Source: a virus
IMG/VR virus record: IMGVR_UViG_3300040801_002011
Location: 1 to 22,620 of that record
Strand: one strand, 5' to 3'
Length of the DNA stretch: 22,620 nucleotides
The position numbers and the translations under genes are program-made. The notes beneath the pieces were generated by a model, which was given only the letters and a program-made list of their open reading frames with translations, was not told the origin of the DNA and searched no databases. This document shows, piece after piece, positions 1,638 to 18,078 of the stretch (positions within the stretch are counted from its first letter, which is position 1; each line of letters begins with the position of its first letter).

Positions 1638-3050
1638 ATGAATATTGAAAAAGAAATTCGGATGGAAAGTCTTAAATTTGTGCGGCATAATAAAGATGTT
1701 GTTATTGATCCTAAAATGCCAGCATATGTCAGTCCAAGAATCAGTAGTGAGTATATGGACTGCAGTATGCCAATGACATTTGATAGTTATTCCCATTGTT
1801 CATTAGGTTGTACTTACTGCTTCGCATATATGTTCAAAACAAATAACTCAAGTTTCTCATCGTTGGTGCATGGCACAAAGCCAAAAGATATTATCAAAGC
1901 GATCAATGGAGAACCAACAAATGTCCGTATGCGTAGCTTTCACAAGCATTTTTTTCAAAAACGTTTTCTACTTCATTGGGGTGGAATGGCCGATCCGTTT
2001 TGCAATTTTGAAAAGGCAAACAAAATCGGATATGAATTAATAAAAGGTTTGGGCAAAGCACAATATCCTACCCTTTTCAGCTTTAAGGGTTCGACAATTT
2101 TCAACCAAAAATATACTTCTATATTTGAAAAGTTCGCCTCACAAAAGAATTTTGCCTTTCAGGTTTCAATCATCGCACCCTCTGATGAAGTGTCTAAGAA
2201 AGTTGAGATTGGTGTTCCTGTTACATCCAAACGAATCAAAGCAATCAAGATGCTTTCCGATATGGGTTACTTTACAATCCTAAGATTGCGGCCTTATATC
2301 ATTGGGATTTCTGATGATGGAATTGAGGAGCTTTTGCACAAATGCAAGGATGCTGGTATCAAAGCAGTTAGCATGGAATTTGTGGCGATAGATACGAGAA
2401 GCAACGAGGGTTTAATGAGGCGCTATAAGTATCTCGGTGAACTTATTGGGGTAAAGAATATTATGCGCCACTTCCGTGAATTAAGCCCGATAGAACGTGG
2501 AGGTTACTTACGTTTGAACCGGCTTGTAAAAGAAGATTATGTCAAAACAGTTTACAAATTTTGTGTTGATAATAATATTCTCTTCGCATGTTCTGATCCT
2601 GACTTTAAAGAATTGAATATGTCGGGTAGCTGTTGCGGTATGCCGGATGAATATCCAGAAAACAGGGAGTTGGAAAACTGGACAAAAAACCAACTGACTT
2701 ACCATATTGCAAGGTGTCGCCGTGAATACCATACCAAAGGGAGAATTGTCCAACTCAAGTTTGGCGATGTATTCAATAACGAGGAAGATACCTATCTCAA
2801 TTCTGTTACATTTGGGCAAGACCACATTTGCGTATCAGATATGTGTTCAAGTGAACGATTTGATACACATTACTATCGACATGCTCGCAACACATGGAAT
2901 AACTTACGTTCCCCTGCCAATCCAAGAAATTACTTCCACGGTAAAATTCTGCCCATAAGGAAAGATGAAAGCAACGACCTTGTATATTCTTACAAGCCTT
3001 CCGAATATGAGGAGCGATGGAAAGACGAAGGTATTGACATGAGCAGATAA
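1638..3050 (+). CDS. Radical SAM protein, SPL-like (470 aa)
   Basis: The Fe-S motif C54-x3-C58-x2-C61 (CSLGCTYC) marks a radical S-adenosylmethionine enzyme, which would cleave SAM to start radical chemistry on a substrate. The spacing from the motif to HWGGMADPF (D119), followed by a Glu a few residues on, matches the spore-photoproduct-lyase/COG1533 branch, where the corresponding segment reads xTDPYxPxE. Extra cysteines occur further on (GSCCGMP and several single ones) and could carry a second cluster or a catalytic Cys. It is longer than typical SPL proteins (about 340 aa), with an added C-terminal region of roughly 130 residues. It starts 17 bases after the previous gene with a GGAAGG site. 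The substrate is unknown; DNA-lesion repair, DNA-base modification or RNA modification are all possible. Confidence 0.8.
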   Translation: MNIEKEIRMESLKFVRHNKDVVIDPKMPAYVSPRISSEYMDCSMPMTFDSYSHCSLGCTYCFAYMFKTNNSSFSSLVHGTKPKDIIKAINGEPTNVRMRSFHKHFFQKRFLLHWGGMADPFCNFEKANKIGYELIKGLGKAQYPTLFSFKGSTIFNQKYTSIFEKFASQKNFAFQVSIIAPSDEVSKKVEIGVPVTSKRIKAIKMLSDMGYFTILRLRPYIIGISDDGIEELLHKCKDAGIKAVSMEFVAIDTRSNEGLMRRYKYLGELIGVKNIMRHFRELSPIERGGYLRLNRLVKEDYVKTVYKFCVDNNILFACSDPDFKELNMSGSCCGMPDEYPENRELENWTKNQLTYHIARCRREYHTKGRIVQLKFGDVFNNEEDTYLNSVTFGQDHICVSDMCSSERFDTHYYRHARNTWNNLRSPANPRNYFHGKILPIRKDESNDLVYSYKPSEYEERWKDEGIDMSR

Positions 3051-6140: not shown

Positions 6141-6395
6141 ATGCCAACAGAACATGAATTGTTTGTAATTGAAGATTTGATGAGAATACTTGGCCAAGGT
6201 ATTGACTATACACTTAGAGACAATGTTGGGCCTAAAGGTTATGCCCTTATTGTTTTTGATTTTCACGAGCCGGGATTATCAAACTATATTTCCAATGCTA
6301 AACGAGAGGACATGATAAAAGCACTTCGGGAAACTGCCAATCGTCTTGAAAAAAATCAAGACGTTCCAGTAATTAGAAATAGGACTATACAATGA
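6141..6395 (+). CDS. Conserved phage hypothetical protein (84 aa)
   Basis: The block GYALIVFDFHEPGLSNYISNAKREDMIKALRE resembles, from memory, a short family frequent in phages of many hosts, with a GxxLLVF strand, a G-x-x-NYISNAxR loop and a helix. No enzymatic residues are known for it. The ATG is seven bases past the previous stop and preceded by GAGGTTG. The stop overlaps the start of the polymerase gene (ATGA, 6392-6395), so it is likely co-translated with the polymerase. Confidence 0.65.
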   Translation: MPTEHELFVIEDLMRILGQGIDYTLRDNVGPKGYALIVFDFHEPGLSNYISNAKREDMIKALRETANRLEKNQDVPVIRNRTIQ

Positions 6396-9300
6396 ATAAC
6401 AAGCAATTGTGCCACCTACACCTCCATACAGAATATAGTCAACTTGACGGTCTTGGCAATGTTGATGAATATGCAACCAGAGCCAAACAAATGGGGTTTA
6501 AATATTTGGCATGTACTGACCACGGCAACATCGATGGTTTGATTAAATTTCAACAAGCATGTATCAAAAACGACATCATCCCAATTCTCGGTTGTGAATT
6601 ATATGTTGTTGAAGATGCGGAACAGTCGATCAAAGAGAAGTCAAAATTACGTGGTCATATCAATGTGCATGTGAAATCACAAAAGGGTTTTGATAACCTT
6701 TGCAAAATGCTTACGTTTGCGAACACCGATGGTTTTTACTACAAGCCCAGAGTAGATTACAAAACCATATTGGAAAACACAGAAGGTTTGTGTTTTTCAA
6801 CCGCATGTTTAATTTCCTTCCTGCGTGTCCTACCAAAAGGCAAGCAATTCTTTTCGGATCTATATGATTGCGTTGGAAAAGATTTGTATTGTGAAATTAT
6901 GCCTCATAGAATCAAACAACAACCAATATGGAATCGTAAGGTCATTCGGGTAGCAAAACGATATGGGTTAAAAGTCTATGCAACAAACGATTGCCATTAT
7001 GTTAAGCGGACACAAGCAATCGGGCAAGAAGTATTGCTTGCTATTCAACGCAAAGCATTATGGAGTGATAAACAACGTTTCAAATTTTCATTAAGAACCT
7101 TCCATTTAAAATCTTGGAAAGAAATGATGGTTGGATTGGTGGAATTTGGACAATACAAAAAAGAATACCTGACCAACACGTTAGAAGTTGCTGAAAAGTG
7201 TTCCGGCTATACTATTCCAAAACGTGATATTGATTTGCCACATATTCCCGGAGTTCCAACAAGAAAGAAAAAAGAGAAAAAGTTTCTCAAACAACTTTGC
7301 TTCGAAGGTTTCAAAAAGAAGTTTGGCAAAAACTTAGCAAGGAATTATGAATATAGCGCAAGGGTAAAGGAAGAATATGATCTTATTACAAAAAAGAATT
7401 TTGAAAGATATTTTCTCATGGTATGGGAACTTATCAACTGGTGTAAAGAAAATAATATTCTTGTTGGTCCTGGGCGTGGGAGTGTCGGTGGCTCCCTTAT
7501 CGCTTACCTCATTGGGATTACAGCCGTCGACCCTATTAAACACAATTTACTTTTTTCTCGTTTTATCAATGAGGACCGCATTGATTATCCTGATATTGAT
7601 ATTGACTTTGAAGATAGCAAAAGACACCTTGTAAGACAACACCTTGAAAGCATGTATGGCGAAGATAATATTGCTGGCGTTTCAAGTTTCAATAGAATGA
7701 AAGCAAGGGCAGCATTAAAAGATGTCGGCCGAGTATTTGGTGTTAAATGGCAAGAAACAGATGTGGTTACAAAACTCATTGAAGATAACGATGAACATAC
7801 CGGTATCCAAGATGCAATTGATGCTTATCAAGAATGTAGAGATTATGCAGAAGAGCACCCACAAGTCATTAAACTTGCAAAACTGCTTGAAGGAACTATA
7901 CGTGGTTATTCTCAACATGCTGCGGCTCTGGTTGTTTCGAAAGAACCGATTGGTACTTCTGGTCGTTGTAATCTATTAACAAACAAACAAGGTGAATCTA
8001 CAGTAAACTGGGAGAAGGAAGATACCGAATATGTTGGGTTGATGAAACTCGATGCGTTGGGCTTAAAACTTTTATCAATACTTTCTGAAACATTACGTTT
8101 AATAAAAGAAAATCAAGGCAAAAATATTGATCTTGAAAAAATAAATATAAATGATAAAAAAGTTCTCAAAGATATTAACGAAGGTAATACTGTCGGTGTG
8201 TTTCAACTTGGAACATGGGCGACAACAAACCTTGTAAAAGAAATGGGCGTTGATGAATTTGACCATCTTAGCGCAACCGTTGCCTTAGTTCGTCCAGGAC
8301 CAGCAAACTCGGGAATGACGGAAGAATACATAAAACGCAAGAATGGTGCAAAATGGGAGCCAATGCACAGTATTTATGAACGGATCACCAAAGATACATA
8401 TGGACTACTTGTCTATCAGGAACAAGTAATGCAAGTTGTTTCTGAGATTGCTGATCTGCCATATTCTACTGCCGATAAGGTTAGAAAAATCATTGGTAAG
8501 AAACGAGATGTAAAAGAATTTAAGAAGTATAAGAAAATGTTTGTTGATGGTTGTAAGAAAACCGGTTACTTTGATAAAAATGAAGCGCTTAGATTTTGGG
8601 CCGGTTTGGAAAAGTGGAGCAAGTATGGCTTTAATAAATCCCACTCCGTTGAATATGCGCTATTAGGATATTGGTGTTCATGGTTAAAAAGATATTTTCC
8701 AACTGAATTTATTTGTGGATCCCTTACCTATGGAGCTAAAGATAAAAAGGCAGAATTAGTTGAGGAAGCATATCGACTTGGACTTACACTTGTTTTACCC
8801 AAAGTTGGAATCTCCCACGCAAATGAATGGACCGTAAAAGACAAACAACTTTTTATACCATTTGAGGAAGTAAACGGTATCGGCCCTAAAAAAGCATTAA
8901 TGGCAGCACAAGCCAAACCAAGAAAGAATAGTATTAAACGGTTTTATAAAAAGAAAAAGAAAGATGAAGTAGAACGGTTTGGTGGAGCATTTGGGGAATT
9001 GCTGAATAGTATTGGTGCCTATGAACCTCATTCAACTTTTAATGTTACCGATGAAGTAAAAAAATTATTTGGTTTTAGAATTACTGCAAACCCAAGAGAT
9101 GAGTATAGAAAATTGTATAATTTGCTTAATGGAAAGATCAGGCTCGACCAACTTGACGATGTTTTAGAAGCAGATTATATAACGATGAAAAAGATTGGTC
9201 GTGAACACCAAATAATCAGGAAAAATAGAACTAATTTTACACGGCATAGAGATTTACATAGTTGTGAATTATGTGAATTGATAGATGAGTGTAAGGCACC

Positions 9301-9796
9301 TGTTCAATTCAGTCCGGGCCTTTATAATGTAATGATTGTTGGCGAAGCACCCGGACCAGAAGAAGATAAGCAACGTGAGGGTTTTGTTGGCCGTAGTGGT
9401 GACAATGTTTGGAAATATTTAAAATCAAAAGGTTACACAAGAAAATTGTTTCATGTAACCAATATTGGAAAATGTTATCCGAGCAAAAGTAGAAAACCAA
9501 ATAAGGAACAGATAGATATTTGTGCTGGCACATATCTATGGGAAGAAATTAAAAATGTTCAACCTAAAGTTATTTTAGCTTTTGGAAATACAGGATTGCA
9601 ATACTTCTTAAATCAAAAATCAGGTATCACCGATATGAGCGGAAGAACAATGTGGCTTGAGAAATTCAATGCATGGGTCGTTTTTTGTATCCATCCTGCC
9701 GCCGCCTTGCATAACCCTGATAATAAGATGTATTACGAGGCCGGTATGAAAAGATTTTGTAAAGTTTTAAGAAGTTTACGCCTTCCTAAAAAATAA
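6392..9796 (+). CDS. dnaE: DnaE-type DNA polymerase fused to family-4-like uracil-DNA glycosylase (1134 aa)
   Basis: Replicative C-family polymerase. Residues 6-270 are a PHP domain with intact metal motifs HLHT (H10, H12) and TDHGN (D43, H44). The palm has PGRGS (360-364), PDIDIDF (400-406; D401 and D403 catalytic) and KLDALG (D554). Fingers continue through FNKSHS and a helix-hairpin-helix (VNGIGPKKA). Where DnaE normally has an OB fold and tail, residues from about 955 form a uracil-DNA glycosylase-like domain: CELC (C958, C961), GEAPG (984-988), FVGRSG, C1028 and C1044, and HPAAAL (H1101). The 16-residue spacing of the last two Cys and the CxxC fit the 4Fe-4S cluster of family-4 enzymes. 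No frameshift is seen; the fusion is one continuous frame. No 3'-5' exonuclease domain of PolC type is present, so PHP may proofread. Confidence 0.93.
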   Translation: MNNKQLCHLHLHTEYSQLDGLGNVDEYATRAKQMGFKYLACTDHGNIDGLIKFQQACIKNDIIPILGCELYVVEDAEQSIKEKSKLRGHINVHVKSQKGFDNLCKMLTFANTDGFYYKPRVDYKTILENTEGLCFSTACLISFLRVLPKGKQFFSDLYDCVGKDLYCEIMPHRIKQQPIWNRKVIRVAKRYGLKVYATNDCHYVKRTQAIGQEVLLAIQRKALWSDKQRFKFSLRTFHLKSWKEMMVGLVEFGQYKKEYLTNTLEVAEKCSGYTIPKRDIDLPHIPGVPTRKKKEKKFLKQLCFEGFKKKFGKNLARNYEYSARVKEEYDLITKKNFERYFLMVWELINWCKENNILVGPGRGSVGGSLIAYLIGITAVDPIKHNLLFSRFINEDRIDYPDIDIDFEDSKRHLVRQHLESMYGEDNIAGVSSFNRMKARAALKDVGRVFGVKWQETDVVTKLIEDNDEHTGIQDAIDAYQECRDYAEEHPQVIKLAKLLEGTIRGYSQHAAALVVSKEPIGTSGRCNLLTNKQGESTVNWEKEDTEYVGLMKLDALGLKLLSILSETLRLIKENQGKNIDLEKININDKKVLKDINEGNTVGVFQLGTWATTNLVKEMGVDEFDHLSATVALVRPGPANSGMTEEYIKRKNGAKWEPMHSIYERITKDTYGLLVYQEQVMQVVSEIADLPYSTADKVRKIIGKKRDVKEFKKYKKMFVDGCKKTGYFDKNEALRFWAGLEKWSKYGFNKSHSVEYALLGYWCSWLKRYFPTEFICGSLTYGAKDKKAELVEEAYRLGLTLVLPKVGISHANEWTVKDKQLFIPFEEVNGIGPKKALMAAQAKPRKNSIKRFYKKKKKDEVERFGGAFGELLNSIGAYEPHSTFNVTDEVKKLFGFRITANPRDEYRKLYNLLNGKIRLDQLDDVLEADYITMKKIGREHQIIRKNRTNFTRHRDLHSCELCELIDECKAPVQFSPGLYNVMIVGEAPGPEEDKQREGFVGRSGDNVWKYLKSKGYTRKLFHVTNIGKCYPSKSRKPNKEQIDICAGTYLWEEIKNVQPKVILAFGNTGLQYFLNQKSGITDMSGRTMWLEKFNAWVVFCIHPAAALHNPDNKMYYEAGMKRFCKVLRSLRLPKK

Positions 9797-9854: not shown

Positions 9855-10346
9855 ATGAGTGATTTTTCAAATGACATTGCGATAAACAAATATAAACTTG
9901 ACGAAGAACTTGTCCAGCAACCCCAAAAGTTTTACGAGTGGGCAAAGGCAGAGGTAATAGCTGGTGAAAAGGTTTCTGAATTAAAAGATGATTTGGAAGT
10001 AATTAAAGCGGAGATGGAAATCCGTATTAGAAGAAATCCAACCCTGTACGATCTGCCAAACAACCCCAAAGAAGGCTTAATTAAAGCGGCTGTGTTGATT
10101 CAAAGAAAGGTTAAAAAAGCCTCTAAACGGTTGATAAAGGCCCAGAGAACGCATGGTTTGTTGAAGAAAGCAGAGAAGTCTTTTGAACACCGGAAAAAAT
10201 CTTTGGAAGGGTTGGTATCAGTAAATATGCAACTGCATTTTGCTACACCAAAAAATGTACCACGACATGATTTTGAAACAGAAAGTACAAGAGGTGAATT
10301 ACTTGATAGAGCTCGTAAGAAAAAAAGGAAGATTAAAAGAAGATGA
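9855..10346 (+). CDS. Possible UvsY-like recombination mediator (163 aa)
   Basis: A highly charged, probably all-helical protein. It opens with a helix pattern around LDEELVQQPQKFYEWAKAEV, continues with IRRNPTLYDLP and NPKEGLIKAAVLIQ, and then has a long basic coiled-coil-like region. This layout, and its place directly before an ssDNA-binding protein and near a RecA-like recombinase, recalls the mediator-type proteins (UvsY and relatives) that load recombinase on coated ssDNA. The identification rests on pattern and context only. The last residues, KKKRKIKRR, form the basic tag shared with three other proteins here. An ATGA overlap or a short gap leads to the next small gene. Confidence 0.5.
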   Translation: MSDFSNDIAINKYKLDEELVQQPQKFYEWAKAEVIAGEKVSELKDDLEVIKAEMEIRIRRNPTLYDLPNNPKEGLIKAAVLIQRKVKKASKRLIKAQRTHGLLKKAEKSFEHRKKSLEGLVSVNMQLHFATPKNVPRHDFETESTRGELLDRARKKKRKIKRR

Positions 10347-10360
10347 ATTGGGGAGATATT

Positions 10361-10501
10361 ATGACATATGTAATTGCAGTACCTTTAAGCGTCGTAGGCT
10401 TTTATTTAGCGGTTAGGATTGCAAGTTACGCTATTTGCAAAAGTATCCACCAAGTATTTAAACCAAAGGAGAAACGTTATGAAAAAGAAAAAAGGTCGTA
10501 A
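10361..10501 (+). CDS. Small single-span membrane protein (46 aa)
   Basis: A short gene overlapped at its 3' end by the ssDNA-binding protein gene in another frame. The first 25 residues form one hydrophobic span (VIAVPLSVVGFYLAVRIA), followed by a basic, presumably cytoplasmic tail ending EKRYEKEKRS. GGGGAG lies five bases before the ATG at 10361. An in-frame ATG at 10343, overlapping the previous stop as ATGA, would add six residues. Its 3' end contains the AAAGGAG ribosome binding site of the next gene, and it overlaps that gene by 23 bases. Function unknown. Confidence 0.55.
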   Translation: MTYVIAVPLSVVGFYLAVRIASYAICKSIHQVFKPKEKRYEKEKRS

Positions 10502-11870
10502 GATGGATTTGCCAAAAAGCAGAAGATCGTCAAAACGCCGGTATCAAAAAGAGCAATTGATTAACCGTGTAAAGCAATCCCAGAAACAAGCGGAAGGCGG
10601 CGGTCTAAGTATTTTGAAACCCGATGTTGATGTAAAGATATGGCGTCCAAACGATGGTTCACATATCATTGACATCATTCCGTATGAAACCGGTAAACAA
10701 AATGTTGAAGGGGATAAGCCTGGGAAGGTACACTATACCTTCCATTATTACATTCACAAAAATGTTGGCCCGAATAATGATTGGTACATTTGCCCAGCGA
10801 GAACATGGGGTGATGAGTGTCCAATCTGTGAACATCGGGCCAAACTACTCGATCAAGGTGCCGACTATGATTCAAAAATTGCACCGCTAAACACCAAGGA
10901 ACGAAACCTTTATAACGTGTTGGTATGGGACAAAGGCGAGGATAAAAAGGGTATCCAAATCTGGGATGTTTCATATCACTATTTTGAAAAGCACGTTATT
11001 GCCCTCAGCAAGAAACCGGCTCGTGGTGGTCGTGCTGAAAAAACCGTTCTCTTTTTCGATGAAGAAGAGGGCAAATCCATTTCATTCACAATTGAACCGG
11101 CCAAAAGTAAAGATGATTACCCTTCATTTGTGGGCCATTCGTTCGATGACCGTGATTATGAATTGGATGAAGATGTACTTGATTCAGCCCATTGTCTTGA
11201 CGAACTCGTCCACAAACCTACTTACGAGGAATTGGAAAAAGCCTTTTGGGGTACGAAAGGTCCTGGTTCTCGTGATGACGATGATGACGATGACGATGAT
11301 GATGATGAAAAAGAAACAAATTGGGAAATGCTGATCGACGACATCGATGATCTTGAAGATCAGGATGAACTCGATGAGTTCTGCGAAGAGAATGGCATTG
11401 ATGTTAAGATGCAGAAAAAGAAATTCAAGAAAAACAAAAAGTCCGTTCGTGCATGGCTGGAAGATGCAGCAGCAAATCAAAGCAATTCAGATGACGACGA
11501 TGACGACGACGATGATGACGACGACGATGAAGTCACCACCGATGACATCGAAGAAATGGACATCGAAGAACTTCTTGAATATTGCGATGATAACGATTTG
11601 AAACCACCGAAGAAAGTGAAAAAGAAAATCAAAAAACTTCGGGCATGGGTTCTTGAACAACTCGATGACGACGACGATGATGACGACGACGATGATGATG
11701 ATGATGAGTCTGAATCCAAATACTCCGTCGATGACATCGAAGAAATGAACAAGCGGCAACTCAAGAAACTTATCAAGGATGAAGGGTTGAAAGTCAATCT
11801 CAAGAAGGCTGGCGATCTTGACGACCTCCAAGATATGGTTATTGACGCACTCGGCATTGACGATGATTAA
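10479..11870 (+). CDS. gp32-like ssDNA-binding protein with three poly-Asp/helical modules (463 aa)
   Basis: The start at 10479 follows AAAGGAG by seven bases. A basic N-terminus (MKKKKGRKM, KSRRSSKRR) precedes a core resembling T4 gp32: H89 and H93 near a zinc site with C105, C114 and C117 (WYICPAR, DECPIC), then an OB-like region to about residue 260. The core would coat ssDNA during replication and recombination. The rest is unusual: poly-Asp runs of 11, 13 and 14 residues (266-276, 338-350, 396-409), each followed by a related 45-60 residue helical module. The modules share a (T/V/I)DDI(E/D)(E/D)(M/L) start, and the first two also have a basic K-rich stretch followed by RAW. T4 gp32 has only one short acidic tail and is 301 residues. 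The gene is followed by a structured intergenic element. Confidence 0.85.
   Translation: MKKKKGRKMDLPKSRRSSKRRYQKEQLINRVKQSQKQAEGGGLSILKPDVDVKIWRPNDGSHIIDIIPYETGKQNVEGDKPGKVHYTFHYYIHKNVGPNNDWYICPARTWGDECPICEHRAKLLDQGADYDSKIAPLNTKERNLYNVLVWDKGEDKKGIQIWDVSYHYFEKHVIALSKKPARGGRAEKTVLFFDEEEGKSISFTIEPAKSKDDYPSFVGHSFDDRDYELDEDVLDSAHCLDELVHKPTYEELEKAFWGTKGPGSRDDDDDDDDDDDEKETNWEMLIDDIDDLEDQDELDEFCEENGIDVKMQKKKFKKNKKSVRAWLEDAAANQSNSDDDDDDDDDDDDDEVTTDDIEEMDIEELLEYCDDNDLKPPKKVKKKIKKLRAWVLEQLDDDDDDDDDDDDDDESESKYSVDDIEEMNKRQLKKLIKDEGLKVNLKKAGDLDDLQDMVIDALGIDDD
11274..11306 (+). repeat. GAY codon repeat, poly-Asp tract 1
   Basis: Eleven consecutive Asp codons mixing GAT and GAC, so the repeat is kept at protein level rather than as a pure trinucleotide run. 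It separates the ssDNA-binding core from helical module 1. Confidence 0.95.
11490..11528 (+). repeat. GAY codon repeat, poly-Asp tract 2
   Basis: Thirteen consecutive Asp codons of mixed GAT and GAC between helical modules 1 and 2 of the ssDNA-binding protein. Confidence 0.95.
11664..11705 (+). repeat. GAY codon repeat, poly-Asp tract 3
   Basis: Fourteen consecutive Asp codons of mixed GAT and GAC between helical modules 2 and 3. The tract lengths rise along the gene (11, 13, 14). Slipped-strand length change between relatives would be expected. Confidence 0.95.
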
Positions 11871-11879
11871 AATTTAACC

Positions 11880-11957
11880 TTGCAAGCGGGGACGTGATGG
11901 CCGTCACGGTCAAGGCAGCGTGTTTACCCTTTTCCACAATGCCGACCCCGCTTGCAA
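11880..11957 (+). ncRNA. Candidate structured RNA, three-way junction
   Basis: A perfect 12-bp inverted repeat (11880-11891 with 11946-11957, TTGCAAGCGGGG and its complement) encloses two further hairpins. One is CGTGA/TCACG (11893-11897 with 11904-11908, six-base loop). The other is GGCA plus GTG paired with CAC plus TGCC (11914-11922 with 11935-11943, a small internal loop between). It is much richer in G+C than the surrounding DNA and lies between the ssDNA-binding protein stop and the NADAR start, which has no strong ribosome binding site. It could be a leader regulator, a small RNA or an elaborate terminator. The T-run after it is weak. It matches no riboswitch class that I recognise. 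Confidence 0.5.
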
Positions 11958-11973
11958 TTCTCTTAGGCATAAT

Positions 11974-12462
11974 ATGAAATACAGAAAAATTATAGATTGT
12001 TTCAAATATCAATATAATTTTCTTAGTAATTTTTACCAAGTTAATATCGAGTGGCAATTTAAAATCTGGCCTTCGGTGGAACACATTTTCCAAGCTTCAA
12101 AAACAAACAAAAAAGTCCAACAAGAAATAATCCGCAAGGTTCCAACCTGTCGTATGGCAAAACAATATGGTAAAGCAATAATACTTCGAGATGATTGGGA
12201 AAAAATAAAAGATACAATGATGTACCTCGCAGTATATCAAAAGTTTTTTCAACATGAATATTTACAGCGCAAATTAATTGATACTGGCATCGCAAAACTT
12301 GTTGAGGGTAATAGTTGGCATGACAATTATTGGGGTGACTGTAAGTGTAGTCGCTGTGCTAATATAAAAGGGCAAAACAAATTAGGCAAAACATTAATGA
12401 CGGTTAGAGCAAGAATCAAAGCACTTCAAAAAGATTTTGATTATAGGAGACTCAATGGCTAA
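11974..12462 (+). CDS. NADAR-domain protein (YbiA-like, 162 aa)
   Basis: The whole protein is one NADAR domain. Visible motifs are YNFLSNFY (14-21), the W-P-S-V-E-H-I-F-Q-A block (31-40, with E35 and H36), a GKAIILRDDW segment, NSWHDNYWGDC, and the C-terminal GQNKLGKTLMTVR. Family members cleave N-glycosidic bonds of ADP-ribose-like or riboflavin-pathway compounds, and some act as antitoxins that remove ADP-ribose from guanine in DNA. ATG 11974 is used because the longer frame from a GTG at 11920 would run through the inverted repeat. It overlaps the recombinase start by 8 bases. A role in undoing ADP-ribosylating host defence is an inference. Confidence 0.85.
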   Translation: MKYRKIIDCFKYQYNFLSNFYQVNIEWQFKIWPSVEHIFQASKTNKKVQQEIIRKVPTCRMAKQYGKAIILRDDWEKIKDTMMYLAVYQKFFQHEYLQRKLIDTGIAKLVEGNSWHDNYWGDCKCSRCANIKGQNKLGKTLMTVRARIKALQKDFDYRRLNG

Positions 12463-13570
12463 TAGAAAGATCAAACGTCGAAAGCAATCTAAAGAAGAAC
12501 AAATGGCAGGAAGTATTGTAAGACGGCGTAAAAAAGCAGATGACCAAAGCTCAGTAGAATTTCTACATTCAGGTTGTACCACTTTAAACCTTGCATTAAG
12601 CGGCAAGGGTGCAAACGGTGGATGGGCAAGGGGTAGGGTCGATAATGTGGTTGGTGATGGCAGTAGTGGTAAAACAATTACTGCTCTTGAAGTAGCTTTT
12701 TGGGCATGGATGAAAGTCAAGAAAATCAAATCCAAAATCTACGGAAAGGTTGAAAAGATTATCATCGTTTACAATAACTGCGAAGGTGTTATGGATTTCC
12801 CGCTGGAGAAAATGTACGGCAAAGAATTTGTAGATGCCGTTGAGTGGGTTTGCATTAAAGAAATTGAATCAATGGGTCGTGATTTTATTTCCAGAATGAG
12901 AGCATTAAAGAAAGGTGAATTTCTACTTTACATTGTAGATTCATGGGATGCCTTATATTCCTCAGCCGACAAGAAACGTTTTGATGATGCAATCAAAGAT
13001 GGGAAGAATGAAGATGGTAGCTATAACCTCGAAAAACAAAAGTATGCTGGAAAGTTCTTTAGCAATGTCTGCGACGACATGGAAGATAATAAGAAGGATG
13101 CAACCCTTTTCATTATATCTCAGGTGCGGCAGAAGATTGGCGTTACTTTTGGAAAAAAGACCTATCGGGCTGGAGGCAAGGCTCTTGATTTTTATACGCA
13201 CCAAGTCGGATGGATCAGAGAACAACAAAAACTTGTCAAAACCAAAAAAGGGCATAAGCGGGTTTATGGGATACGGTCTGAGGTTAAGGTTGAAAGATCG
13301 AAAGTTGCAAAGCCGTTCCGTGAAGCTCAGTTTACGATCCTTTATGATTATGGAATTGATGACATTAACTCTATGGCCGACTTCCTTTACGGATCAGGTT
13401 CTATACGGTGGGATAAAAAGAATAAATTTGCAAGACGAGATTCCTTTGTTACGTTTATCGAAGAAAATAATCTCGAAAAGGAATTGCAAGAAAGAGTAGT
13501 TCGTGAATGGGAAGAAATTGAGGAAGCATTTGAAAGTGATGTAACCAAACGCAAGAAGAGGGTTGTATGA
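12455..13570 (+). CDS. RecA/UvsX-like recombinase (371 aa)
   Basis: The ATPase core has Walker A GDGSSGKT (67-74) after a RecA-like approach (GCTTLNLALSG, RGRVDNVVG), and Walker B LLYIVDSWDAL (D162). A strand ending in ISQVRQ is followed by loop-2-like residues and by the RecA-type segments AGGKALDFY, KVERSKVAKPFREAQF and ILYDYGI. It should form filaments on ssDNA and promote strand exchange for recombination-dependent replication. ATG 12455 follows AGGAGA by four bases; an in-frame TTG at 12437 is less likely. Residues 4-9 are RKIKRR, the basic peptide shared with other proteins here, and the C-terminus is also basic (TKRKKRVV). The stop overlaps the next start as ATGA. Confidence 0.9.
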   Translation: MANRKIKRRKQSKEEQMAGSIVRRRKKADDQSSVEFLHSGCTTLNLALSGKGANGGWARGRVDNVVGDGSSGKTITALEVAFWAWMKVKKIKSKIYGKVEKIIIVYNNCEGVMDFPLEKMYGKEFVDAVEWVCIKEIESMGRDFISRMRALKKGEFLLYIVDSWDALYSSADKKRFDDAIKDGKNEDGSYNLEKQKYAGKFFSNVCDDMEDNKKDATLFIISQVRQKIGVTFGKKTYRAGGKALDFYTHQVGWIREQQKLVKTKKGHKRVYGIRSEVKVERSKVAKPFREAQFTILYDYGIDDINSMADFLYGSGSIRWDKKNKFARRDSFVTFIEENNLEKELQERVVREWEEIEEAFESDVTKRKKRVV

Positions 13571-13785: not shown

Positions 13786-14030
13786 ACGAACCAATACATA
13801 CTTTTGAAATGACAGTAAACATATACGATGCTTTGCCAAAATTCGTTACTCCTGAATATACAATCTTTGAAGATCGCAAAGGATTTAGGGTCTGCTTAAA
13901 AGATATGCGGGATAATTATTCTTTCGATTGCCAAGTTTTTATATTTGATGAAATAATCACTCACGAAAAACTCAAAACAACAGTATGGTCAAAATATTTT
14001 TTCATGCTGTTCGCAGAAGGAGTTTTATGA
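13782..14030 (+). CDS. Hypothetical protein (82 aa)
   Basis: A small, mixed alpha/beta protein with no family that I recognise (TVNIYDALPKFVTPEYTIFEDRKGFRV). No metal or membrane features are seen. Both ends overlap neighbours by 4 bases, so it sits in a coupled block with the recombinase and the 5'-3' exonuclease genes. Its 3' end carries the AAGGAG ribosome binding site of the exonuclease gene. Confidence 0.6.
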   Translation: MNEPIHTFEMTVNIYDALPKFVTPEYTIFEDRKGFRVCLKDMRDNYSFDCQVFIFDEIITHEKLKTTVWSKYFFMLFAEGVL

Positions 14031-14914
14031 AAACTGTTATTGTTGTTGATTGCTCTGCTCTTGCATACGCCGCATTTTATGCATTTGGACATTTATCATA
14101 CAGTGGAACGGACACTGGTGTTATTTACGGTTTCTTGTCTAAACTGCGTCAAATTGGCGAGAAATTTAAAACAAATGATTTTATTCTTTGTTGGGATGCA
14201 AAGTACACACATCGACACAAGGATTATAAAGATTACAAAAAGAAACGTATCGACAAACGAGATGAAATGACAGAACAAGAAGCAAGAGCTCGCATGTCAT
14301 TTATTGAACAAGTTGACAAACTTCGTGACGATGTAATACCAGCAATGGGTTTTAAAAATAACTTCATGTGTCCAATGTATGAGGCTGATGATTTACTTGC
14401 TGTTTGGGTAAGGCGTATGGATGCAAAAGGATACAAGGTTGTTATGGTTACAAGCGATCAGGATATGTATCAAGTTCTTGATTGTTGTGTTATGTACTCA
14501 CCTGCCAAAAAGGGCAAGCTATTCACGCATGATGACTTGTTAAAAGAATACGGTATTCCTGCTAACAAATGGGCAAAGGCAAAAGCTATTGGTGGTTGCG
14601 ATGGCGATGGAGTAATTGGTATCTATGGAGCAGCCGACCCTAAGAAGCCCACCAGCAAGGTTTTAAAGTATTTGCAAGGTAAGTTAACCAAAGGTGTTAT
14701 ATTTGACCGCATACGAAGCCGCGAGGGGCGTAAAACCATAAGAAAAAACTTGCCCATAGTAACAACGCCATACAAACCTGAATTAATGCCTCGAATGATC
14801 CGGCGTCGAAATCAATTCACCATAAAAAAATTTATCCTTACTTTTGAACTTTATGGTTTTCGATCATTTCTCGAAAGGGATGGATTGGAGAAATGGAAGG
14901 ATGTGTTTTTATAA
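14027..14914 (+). CDS. 5'-3' exonuclease / flap endonuclease (295 aa)
   Basis: Start set at 14027 because AAGGAG lies five bases upstream and the protein then begins with the canonical strand MKTVIVVDCSALAYAAF (D8). Other FEN-family residues are CWDAKYTHRHKDYKDYKKKR (basic arch region), YEADD (E119, D121, D122) and VTSDQDMYQVL (D144, D146). A helix-3-turn-helix-like GGCDGDGVIGIYG (189-201) replaces the usual GDxxDNIPG. It should remove RNA primers and flaps, like T4 RNase H or the Pol I N-domain; the DnaE-type polymerase here has no such domain. Length is close to that of stand-alone family members. The TAA overlaps the next ATG by one base. Confidence 0.88.
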   Translation: MKTVIVVDCSALAYAAFYAFGHLSYSGTDTGVIYGFLSKLRQIGEKFKTNDFILCWDAKYTHRHKDYKDYKKKRIDKRDEMTEQEARARMSFIEQVDKLRDDVIPAMGFKNNFMCPMYEADDLLAVWVRRMDAKGYKVVMVTSDQDMYQVLDCCVMYSPAKKGKLFTHDDLLKEYGIPANKWAKAKAIGGCDGDGVIGIYGAADPKKPTSKVLKYLQGKLTKGVIFDRIRSREGRKTIRKNLPIVTTPYKPELMPRMIRRRNQFTIKKFILTFELYGFRSFLERDGLEKWKDVFL

Positions 14915-15118: not shown

Positions 15119-15394
15119 ATGGCAAAAGCTGTATTAATGTTGGCTCTCATAAAGGAGAAACTTAATAGTCCAAGACTATCTAAGGACTGCCTTTATTTTG
15201 ATGAAAAGAACGGTCTCAGGGCTGCAAACAGAATAAAGAGGGATCTTAGAAAGGTCCGTGATATGAGCCAAAAAATGTATAAAGAAATATTGGAGGCCCA
15301 AAAAGAAATAAAAAGAAGTCATGGACGAGTAGTTAAACAAAAGGAAAAAAGAAATGCTCCGAAAAATCCGTTTAAGAAACTTTCGGACTCATAA
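15119..15394 (+). CDS. Hypothetical basic helical protein (91 aa)
   Basis: A highly basic, helical protein with probable coiled-coil stretches (NRIKRDLRKVRDMSQKMYKEILEAQKEIKR). GGAGG at 15106-15110 fits an ATG at 15119; a GTG at 15104 is an in-frame alternative that would lie too close to that site. It overlaps the start of the Rad50-like N-half gene by 41 bases, so the two may be made together. The 31 bases before it hold only the ribosome binding site. Not recognised. Confidence 0.6.
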   Translation: MAKAVLMLALIKEKLNSPRLSKDCLYFDEKNGLRAANRIKRDLRKVRDMSQKMYKEILEAQKEIKRSHGRVVKQKEKRNAPKNPFKKLSDS

Positions 15395-16319
15395 AGATTC
15401 CGAACTTAGATTTTGCTCTGGCGTTAATGGTATTATTGGAGTTGGCACTTCTGGAAAAACAAATATACTCAGGGCGCTAAAACTTGTATTCACCAACAGA
15501 CCGTTAGGAACTGGTGTTATTAGTAGATTTGTTATGAAGATCGCTCAGAAAACCACGGTTGATACGTGGTGGTCTGATATAGGTAAAATTACTTATGTCA
15601 AAATGGGCGATCCGAAGTACAGCTATTACAAAGTAAATGATGAAGATCCTTATAGAAAATTTGGGCAGAATACACCTGAGCCAATTGTCAACGCTATCAA
15701 CTTATCGGATATAAATTTTGCCAATCAATTTGATGGGCCATATCTTATTTTTTCTGGTCCTGGTGAAATATCCAAAACAATCAATGCTATTACTGGAGCC
15801 GATGAATTTGATAAATGGATTTCAGAAGTAACTGATCGAATAAAAAGGATTAAATTCAAACTCAAAGACTCAGACTATAGAATTGAAAAATATAGTATTG
15901 ATAGAGACAAGTTGGATGGTCTATCAAGAGTTAAAAATTGGGTTGATAAAGCATCTGCTGCATCGAAAAAATTGCAAGACACAAAAGATGAATTTGACGA
16001 TGTAACTGATCTATACAATACATTAATTGGGTTGAAAGCAAAGGCAGATTTGCACCGGAGAATTGCAGGGTTAGGCAAATACGTCAAAAGTTTAAAAAGA
16101 GTTCGTAAGAAAATGGACTCGTACGATGATGTAATAGAATTATCAGAAACACTTATTCAAAAACGTAAGATATATAAAGAGGCATTGAAAAGGCACAGAA
16201 AATTAGTAAAGAATTTCACAAGAAAATTAATAGAAGAGAGACGATGCCCAACTTGCTTATCTCCGATAAAACAGTCTACAATTCAAAGGTTGAAAAATGA
16301 AATTCGTATTACTAAGTGA
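15354..16319 (+). CDS. SbcC/Rad50-like ATPase, N-terminal half (321 aa)
   Basis: Begins like SMC/Rad50 proteins, MLRKIRLRNFRTHKD, with Walker A GVGTSGKT at residues 29-36. A globular lobe continues to about residue 150. From about 155 to 297 there is a charged helical region compatible with coiled coil, and C298-P-T-C301 forms a zinc-hook motif. The protein then stops after only 20 more residues (ending LKNEIRITK). The return arm, signature motif and Walker B are absent here and appear in the separate gene at 17428-18078. With the Mre11-like nuclease it would process DNA ends. It overlaps the nuclease gene by 23 bases. The frame continues normally to its stop, so this does not look like a recent break. 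Confidence 0.8.
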   Translation: MLRKIRLRNFRTHKDSELRFCSGVNGIIGVGTSGKTNILRALKLVFTNRPLGTGVISRFVMKIAQKTTVDTWWSDIGKITYVKMGDPKYSYYKVNDEDPYRKFGQNTPEPIVNAINLSDINFANQFDGPYLIFSGPGEISKTINAITGADEFDKWISEVTDRIKRIKFKLKDSDYRIEKYSIDRDKLDGLSRVKNWVDKASAASKKLQDTKDEFDDVTDLYNTLIGLKAKADLHRRIAGLGKYVKSLKRVRKKMDSYDDVIELSETLIQKRKIYKEALKRHRKLVKNFTRKLIEERRCPTCLSPIKQSTIQRLKNEIRITK

Positions 16320-17193
16320 CGTTCACGCAAAGTATAAAAACTCAATAGGTCGCAAGGATAATATCGGCAAAACATTTGAAAGCAAATTGCAATATGTTTT
16401 TGACTATGCTCAACAACACAAATGCGCAATTCTACAGGCTGGCGATCTGAATGATAAAGCAAGAGACTGGGATGTTCTCAATTTTCTTATTGATACAATT
16501 AGATCTCATAGTGTTGATTTCTTTTGTGTCTATGGTCAGCATGATTTGTATATGCGCCGTGACCCCGATGAATCGCCTTCTGTATTGTCTGTACTGGCTA
16601 AAACAAATCAGTTTGTGCATATACTTAACAGTGATAAAACAGGATACGCTGGTGTTGACCTGTACGGCTCCAATTGGGGTGAAAAGATACCATATCCAGA
16701 AAATAATAATCGCAAACGTATTCTTGTGTTACATGCACCAATTTCTAAACGTAAAGAATACCCCGGACATGATTATACTTCGCCAGAATATTTTCTCAAA
16801 AAACATCCAGCATACCATTTGGTTTTAGTTGGCGATGTTCATAAAAAAATCTATTGCAAATATCAAAATAGATATTTAATAAATACCGGCCCAATGCTTC
16901 GAGTAGAAGCAACCAAATATAACATGCGACATCGACCATGCTTCTATGTTTACAATTCTGAAAAGCATGAACTTATAAAAGAAATCATTCCGCATAAACC
17001 GGCAAGTGATATTTTGACACGGGACCACATTGTTCAAAAAAATATATCAACGGAAGAACTTGCAGAATTTACACGGACCATTAAAACAATGCGCCCGTTA
17101 GATAAAGGCCGGAGAGAAAGTGTAATAAGATTTTCAAAAGAACTCGGCAACAAAAGAGTTACAAGAATTGTTAAGGAGGTTATAAATGGTTGA
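16297..17193 (+). CDS. SbcD/Mre11-like nuclease subunit (298 aa)
   Basis: A calcineurin-like metallophosphoesterase with the Mre11 motifs LLSDVHAK (D8, H10), AGDLND (D50), YGQHDLY (H82, D83), VLHAP (H146) and VGDVHKK (D180, H182). These bind two metal ions for nuclease activity. The usual GNHD reads GQHD here; Asn to Gln at this position is notable because that residue normally contacts a metal. It corresponds to T4 gp47 and would act with the Rad50-like halves encoded on both sides. AAAGG lies seven bases before the ATG. The end overlaps the next small gene by 8 bases, where a strong AAGGAGG site is embedded. Confidence 0.85.
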   Translation: MKFVLLSDVHAKYKNSIGRKDNIGKTFESKLQYVFDYAQQHKCAILQAGDLNDKARDWDVLNFLIDTIRSHSVDFFCVYGQHDLYMRRDPDESPSVLSVLAKTNQFVHILNSDKTGYAGVDLYGSNWGEKIPYPENNNRKRILVLHAPISKRKEYPGHDYTSPEYFLKKHPAYHLVLVGDVHKKIYCKYQNRYLINTGPMLRVEATKYNMRHRPCFYVYNSEKHELIKEIIPHKPASDILTRDHIVQKNISTEELAEFTRTIKTMRPLDKGRRESVIRFSKELGNKRVTRIVKEVING

Positions 17194-17425
17194 TTCAATC
17201 AGAGAACTCGAAGATAAAGTACAGGCATCCAAAACCACCTGTGCAATTTATGACAAAGAAATAAAAGACATCGAAGCAAAACTTAAAGAAAAAAATATTG
17301 ATATAAAAAATATCGAATCGGCTCTTGATAATATCATTGAATTGATTGACAAGCTTGCACACGAAGAGAAAAAACTTCTTGCCAAAGCCAACAAAGAACT
17401 GCGTCGGGTAGAGAAAAGGTTTTAG
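17186..17425 (+). CDS. Small coiled-coil protein between Rad50-like halves (79 aa)
   Basis: Nearly the whole protein shows a heptad-like pattern of Leu/Ile and charged residues (SIRELEDKVQ, KEIKDIEAKLKEKNIDIKNIESAL, IELIDKLAHEEKKLL), without Pro or Gly. It has a strong AAGGAGG seven bases upstream. It lies between the nuclease gene and the C-terminal Rad50-like half. Its length would roughly fill the missing part of the return coiled coil of the split ATPase, so it may be a third piece of that complex; this is inference. It could also be an independent dimerising protein. Confidence 0.65.
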   Translation: MVDSIRELEDKVQASKTTCAIYDKEIKDIEAKLKEKNIDIKNIESALDNIIELIDKLAHEEKKLLAKANKELRRVEKRF

Positions 17426-17427
17426 AT

Positions 17428-18078
17428 ATGGATATTGATATTGATATTGAAAAAATAGAAAACCGATACAGGAATCTCGAAGAAAAACTTGCCTTTGCTA
17501 AAAGTGAAATCAAATTAGCAAAAAAAGACAAGCGACGCTTTAAAAAGAGACTTCTTAATCACGAGAAAGCACGATGGGTTTTTGCAGAGGTATCAAAGCA
17601 AATCCAAATAGAAACAAAATCTCGTATTGAAAAATTAATCACACTTGCTTTGCGATCTGTATTTGAAAGAGAGTTTACTTTCAAAATGAAACTTGAACAC
17701 AAGGCAAATAAGATTTATGCAATCCCAACAATTATTGAAGGTGGAGAAGAATTTAATAATTTGAAAGAGGATCTTGGTGGTTCAATGGTTGACATTGTAT
17801 CCCTTGCAATGAAAATTGTTCTATGGAGTATGGAGTCACCGCAACGAAGAAATTTATTTATTGTTGATGAACCCTTCCGTTTCACTGGCCGATTAGTAAA
17901 AAAGGCTGGCTATATGTTGAAATATCTTTCAAAAGAATTGAATTTTCAAGTTATTATTGTTACCCACGATGATGAGCTAATTGAAATCTGCGATCGTGTC
18001 TATGGAGTAAGACACGATGGAAATCACTCCATTGTTACTCTAATTAAAGGTAACAAAAGGAAAATCAAGAGACGATGA
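17428..18078 (+). CDS. SbcC/Rad50-like ATPase, C-terminal half (216 aa)
   Basis: Starts with MDIDIDIE, then about 48 residues of charged coiled coil. The C-lobe follows: a helix pattern (ETKSRIEKLITLALRSVFE), the ABC signature-like DLGGSMVDIVSLAM (LGGS at 116-119), Walker B LFIVDEPF (D147, E148) and the switch His in VTHDDE (H180). These residues complement the Walker A of the gene at 15354, so the two should form a working ATPase. From memory, stand-alone C-lobe ATPases of this shape occur in other phages. The protein ends in KRKIKRR, the tag shared with the recombinase, the mediator candidate and a zinc protein. The stop overlaps the J-domain gene start (ATGA). Confidence 0.82.
   Translation: MDIDIDIEKIENRYRNLEEKLAFAKSEIKLAKKDKRRFKKRLLNHEKARWVFAEVSKQIQIETKSRIEKLITLALRSVFEREFTFKMKLEHKANKIYAIPTIIEGGEEFNNLKEDLGGSMVDIVSLAMKIVLWSMESPQRRNLFIVDEPFRFTGRLVKKAGYMLKYLSKELNFQVIIVTHDDELIEICDRVYGVRHDGNHSIVTLIKGNKRKIKRR

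Follow-up and report, generated by a model that had tools for sequence, protein, structure and literature searches.

An apparently intact family-4-type uracil-DNA glycosylase domain in a phage DnaE-type replicase

The viral DNA considered here, positions 1 to 22,620 of IMG/VR record IMGVR_UViG_3300040801_002011 (the whole 22,620-nucleotide stretch is called the window), carries at 6392–9796 on the plus strand one uninterrupted frame of 1134 amino acids (aa), in which a DnaE-type DNA polymerase is joined to a C-terminal uracil-DNA glycosylase (UDG) domain. We favour the reading, with a probability of roughly 0.58, that this is a phage DnaE in which a family-4 [4Fe-4S] UDG has taken the place of the OB domain and the tau-binding C-terminal domain (CTD), and that this UDG would scan DNA, excise uracil and double as a DNA-binding module. 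The fusion as such has been known since 2013; what appears to be new, judging from the aligned sequences, is the intact and conserved state of the domain in the clade of the window protein (the window clade), as against the degraded earlier copies. That one frame links a C-family polymerase to a UDG-like domain had been proposed from the letters of the sequence alone (the original prediction), and open reading frame, Pfam and fold all agree.

The glycosylase domain spans residues 951–1128 (9242–9775) and was recognized through Pfam PF03167, NCBIfam UDG_fam4, PDB entry 1ui0 and Foldseek. The Pfam UDG match (residues 978–1112, 2.4e-25) passes the superfamily cut-off, and the best sequence match among solved structures is the Thermus UDG 1ui0 (4e-24); the UDG_fam4 match (1.2e-29, 103 bits) lies below the curated cut-off of 125, and the domain is treated here as a putative divergent subgroup of family 4. 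An AlphaFold2 model of the full-length protein (mean pLDDT 87, about 90 across residues 970–1128) predicts a UDG fold in the C-terminal part, which disposes of the possibility that no such fold follows the polymerase, and Foldseek places this part among family-4 UDGs, with 1ui1 at a TM-score of 0.83 (on target) and an rmsd of 2.1; a separate 274-residue structure model was of low confidence beyond the UDG core. Together with the motifs and four cysteines described below, these matches bear out the original assignment to the Fe-S UDGs of family 4. As in the family-4 enzymes of Thermus thermophilus (1ui0/1ui1) and Sulfolobus tokodaii (4zby), the fold is accompanied by a motif A of the form GE(A/G)PG (GEAPG, residues 984–988), by motif B (HPA, 1101–1103, within HPAAAL from H1101), by four Fe-S cysteines and by a Phe/Asn/His pocket; unlike in those enzymes, the domain is fused to a replicase, and in most of the clade a loop Asn is changed to Ser or Thr and the motif-B Arg to His or Tyr. 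UdgX, with which a comparison had also been proposed, belongs to the same superfamily and shares the [4Fe-4S] fold, but is defined by GEQPG and a KRRIH loop with a nucleophilic His; a UdgX identity was rejected, since the window domain has GEAPG and, instead of KRRIH, the loop KCYPSKSRKPNKE.

Scans of IMG/VR recovered the same fusion from no fewer than 68 different virus contigs of metagenomic origin, and residue counts refer to the 68 distinct fused proteins left after duplicate removal, a total that includes one N-terminal fusion (L057). The predicted Fe-S cysteines, namely C958 and C961 of the motif CELC (9263–9274), C1028 (9473–9475) and C1044 (9521–9523), 16 residues from C1028, are Cys in 68/68. 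Alignment to S. tokodaii UDG (Sto UDG) equates E985, F998, N1024 and C1028 with E42, F55, N82 and C86, respectively; in that enzyme uracil stacks against F55, and its Watson–Crick face is contacted at the Asn position (PMC11078745). E985 of motif A (9344–9346) is Glu in 62 proteins and Gln in six, all six of which carry GQDPG; the putative base-stacking F998 (9383–9385), which opens the segment FVGRSG (998–1003), is Phe in 65/68; the putative uracil-recognition residue N1024 (9461–9463) is Asn in 66/68; and H1101 of motif B (9692–9694) is kept in 67/68. The four cysteines, Glu or Gln at 985, N1024 and H1101 are all kept in 66 of the 68, a count in which intact motifs are over-represented because one locus scan used motif-A patterns. 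A polymerase-core tree, built from loci found mostly with polymerase patterns, holds one clade with 23 intact, 3 damaged and 4 UDG-less members. In the closest pairs, dN/dS of the UDG region is 0.05–0.14, comparable to that of the polymerase region. Intact pocket residues and Fe-S cysteines under purifying selection favour a role of the domain in handling uracil.

The first ~850 residues form a complete DnaE polymerase of the PHP type, matched by NCBIfam polc above its cut-off (2e-228); the nearest solved structures are the Taq, E. coli and M. tuberculosis DnaE enzymes, and in Foldseek the polymerase part of the model falls on the DnaE structures 2hpi and 7pu7. The PHP domain (residues 8–171, 6413–6904; PF02811, 2e-34) is followed by the palm/NTPase domain (298–557, 7283–8062; PF07733 DNA_pol3_alpha, 8e-80), whose catalytic D401, D403 and D554, already singled out in the original prediction, show no variation across 25 relatives, and by the fingers (561–725, 8072–8566; PF17657, 1.6e-48). 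The putative PHP metal ligands H10, H12, D19, H44, E69, H89, C139, D200 and H202, assigned by conservation and alignment to M. tuberculosis DnaE1, include two (D200 and H202) slightly past the end of the Pfam match; because all nine residues aligned with the metal site of that enzyme are present, the fusion polymerase may be able to proofread its own synthesis. Residues 726–950 (8567–9241) comprise the remaining core, an HhH-like segment and a linker (the gap between core and UDG profiles has a median of 98 residues), without a recognized OB domain. Directly after the HhH region, at the place of the internal clamp-binding motif of DnaE, lies a conserved VKxLFxFRI (residues 889–897, 9056–9082), possibly a degenerate site for clamp binding. 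The protein thus has the PHP domain, the palm and fingers with three catalytic aspartates and the DnaE fold of a DnaE-type enzyme, but departs from that type in its C-terminal part, where an OB domain (present in at least 97% of C-family polymerases) and a CTD are expected; neither Pfam nor the AlphaFold2 model gave a match to an OB domain, and the C-terminus is the UDG.

A DnaE in which a UDG of archaeal type (PF03167) stands in for OB domain and CTD was described from some strains of Yersinia pestis and Salmonella enterica (Timinskas et al., 2013; PMC3919608), and the window protein fits this DnaEX-UDG architecture, as do about 30 annotated phage records; the earlier type is represented by SSU5 and by Klebsiella, Escherichia, Rhizobium, Pseudomonas (nickie group) and Stenotrophomonas phages, and the GenBank record of phage RHEph10 lists 'uracil-DNA glycosylase-like'. 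The two-domain order that was to be sought in phage proteins exists both there and in the metagenomic fusions, and the initial view that no well-described case on a DnaE-type enzyme existed was wrong in part. We take SSU5-like phages and phage-plasmids to be of the same type as the 2013 variant, with SSU5 and the Klebsiella phages standing in for it; they share the DnaE core, the C-terminal PF03167 in place of OB domain and CTD, and a similar length (1102–1172 aa). Across nine phage examples (from SSU5 and from Klebsiella, Rhizobium, Pseudomonas and Stenotrophomonas phages) and two plasmid copies (Shinella and Acinetobacter), however, all 11 domains are without the family-4 His (Asn or Ser stands there) and the Asn of the pocket, and none has a full set of Fe-S cysteines, although the Acinetobacter plasmid copy still has the first CxxC; the SSU5-type domains examined have thus lost what the window clade retains. 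Matches in Rhizobium and Klebsiella phages were accordingly rejected as equal cases, their UDG domains being decayed. The degenerate domain shows an omega of 0.03–0.18 in close pairs (0.43 in one more distant pair), and this purifying selection points to a non-catalytic role there. The polymerase of YerA41 was dropped as a candidate UDG fusion, its paper mentioning no UDG; a review of jumbo phages does not mention DnaE-UDG either. An Acinetobacter plasmid 'uracil-DNA glycosylase family protein' (L262, 286–4529) proved not to be a free glycosylase but the C-terminal piece of a DnaE-UDG into which a NUMOD4 gene intrudes.

In the reading favoured here, the UDG domain, positioned where the OB domain would contact DNA, would grip DNA near the polymerase and double as a substitute for the OB domain, which normally supplies a non-catalytic hold on DNA. 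It would also scan the DNA, presumably close to the fork, for uracil from cytosine deamination or dUTP incorporation and excise it, the resulting abasic site being passed to host or phage repair. Incorporation of dUTP is considered as a source because the 19 records with a C-terminal fusion that were examined contain no match to the dUTPase family PF00692; PF08761 was likewise absent from 26 records (with a weak control, 1/14) and a second UDG from the 20 records searched. Such absences accord with a response to uracil carried on the replicase, although all of these records are fragments. Nothing points specifically to host deaminases, against which the original prediction had suggested that the domain might guard.

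Several observations weigh against this reading. S1033 (9488–9490) occupies the position of N89 in Thermus UDG (TthUDG) and of H109 in UdgX, and of 69 aligned fused rows 52 have Ser or Thr there and 7 have Asn; the Arg of motif B is mostly His or Tyr in the window clade. At both positions the domain departs from family 4, and it may differ from the textbook enzyme in its rate or even in the reaction that it carries out. Template uracil excised ahead of the polymerase would leave blocking abasic sites. Four polymerases inside the window clade lack the UDG domain, with none found elsewhere in those fragments, and uracil removal is therefore dispensable. Excision by the domain is nonetheless plausible, if not assured, because UdgX H109S, with Ser at the equivalent loop position, excises uracil with turnover (PMC10359453).

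The strongest competitor, itself unlikely, holds that the UDG domain took the place of the OB domain chiefly as a structural module for DNA binding or processivity, with excision vestigial. This would accord with the purifying selection on SSU5-type domains that lack catalytic residues, with the damaged pockets of three window-clade members (L038, L041 and L043) and with the precedent of vaccinia UNG, a repair enzyme that also serves replication as a processivity factor (PMC10253040) and that equally suits the favoured reading. A purely structural role would, however, have no need of the pocket and Fe-S residues kept in 66 of 68 proteins, and the SSU5-type clade shows that residues which are not needed get lost.

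Less probable again is a uracil sensor, in which the domain would bind template uracil and make the polymerase stall or backtrack, excision being slow or absent. Archaeal B-family polymerases stall at uracil by such a read-ahead mechanism, and the retention of F998, N1024 and H1101 alongside the change of the loop Asn to Ser or Thr, and of Glu to Gln in six proteins, would suit binding without efficient cleavage; against it stand the turnover by UdgX H109S, whose Ser occupies that loop position, and the Glu at residue 985 in 62 of the 68.

There is little likelihood that the domain targets another base (unmodified, modified or host-altered) in phage DNA, much as Brig1 acts on glucosylated hydroxymethylcytosine. 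Members of the UDG superfamily can switch specificity (PMC11078745), the loop and motif B are altered in the window clade, and thymidylate-synthase-like partial matches occur in a few related records, but the uracil-contacting F998 and N1024 agree with family 4, and no modification genes were identified in the window. That an error of sequencing or assembly made one frame out of two separate genes can be set aside, since the single-frame fusion recurs in 68 distinct proteins under codon-level purifying selection and nothing was found in its favour.

Among the best 80 bacterial and archaeal genome-contig loci, searched for the intact fusion in genomes and prophages, all were ordinary UDGs and none was fused, and the intact fusion therefore appears viral at this sampling. 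The polymerase-core tree resolves the window clade (30 rows, SH-aLRT 100) and a separate SSU5-type clade (100), with UDG-free polymerases between them and support of 99–100 for the separation, and the UDG tree likewise separates the two (98 and 100); a single origin of both DnaE-UDG clades is neither shown nor rejected (AU test, p = 0.115). The UDG-free members nested in the window clade suggest losses. Between L042 and L054 (5950–9423) the polymerase region is almost the same (dS 0.04), but the UDG region has diverged much further (dS 0.38), which suggests that the UDG domain has recombined or been exchanged. In L223, L237, L247 and L050 the DnaE-UDG frames are over-long or interrupted, which suggests that the polymerase core contains inteins or introns.

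UDGs and replicases are linked independently in other ways as well, which speaks for the favoured reading. In L057 (5935–10038) the UDG lies at the N-terminus of DnaE (residues 25–176), and the same contig has dUTPase and thymidylate synthase matches; in L256 (3094–8158), and also in L257, L258 and L259, a free family-4 UDG gene lies between the halves of a split DnaE, and L256 has a further gene between the halves that by eye resembles a DnaQ-type exonuclease. A-family phage polymerases of the PaBG group and of phiLo (PDB 9qhs) likewise carry a UDG-fold domain on a phage replicase, but the polymerase family is unrelated and the domain sits at the opposite, N-terminal end. A broader reading, which we hold tentatively and at somewhat less than even odds, is that the window lineage has an active UDG in a C-family replicase that repairs uracil at the fork, that the earlier DnaE-UDGs are decayed, excision-dead DNA-binding modules, and that phages repeatedly recruited UDGs to their replicases (at the C-terminus and at the N-terminus of DnaE, with a split DnaE, and in the A-family).

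If the domain is active, base-excision repair would be covalently tied to a DnaE-type replicase, and one could test directly how a replicase behaves on encountering or producing dU. The pairing of an intact with a decayed clade offers a natural experiment in which catalysis and a structural (OB-like or processivity) role of the UDG fold can be told apart, a matter also debated for poxvirus UNG, and such an enzyme could serve in uracil-sensitive DNA amplification.

The start of the fusion gene overlaps the stop of the upstream open reading frame. Downstream, also on the plus strand, follow a conserved gene (phrog_1069, 9855–10346), present in 16 of 22 relatives examined, a gp32-like single-stranded DNA-binding protein (10419–11870; Pfam gp32, 2.7e-9), a RecA/UvsX-like recombinase (12437–13570), a 5'-3' exonuclease (13985–14914; Pfam 5_3_exonuc_N, 8e-30) and an SbcC/SbcD-like module (15354–18078). 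Together they make up a T4-like set of recombination and replication genes, with DnaE as the replicase. Beta clamp matches occur in 5 of 20 related records, two of them above the cut-off, and there is therefore no general link between the fusion and absence of a clamp; for the apurinic/apyrimidinic endonuclease family PF01261, a single sub-threshold match was obtained. The gp32-like protein has several long acidic Asp runs in its C-terminal half. The SbcC-like ATPase is seemingly split into N-terminal (15354–16319) and C-terminal (17428–18078) genes around SbcD (16297–17193), a layout repeated in L002, L004 and L006. A NADAR-domain protein (11920–12462) between the gp32-like protein and the recombinase is absent from the relatives compared. 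A radical SAM protein (1638–3050), distantly like PA0069/Rv2578c, is 61–82% identical to counterparts near DnaE-UDG in six related contigs.

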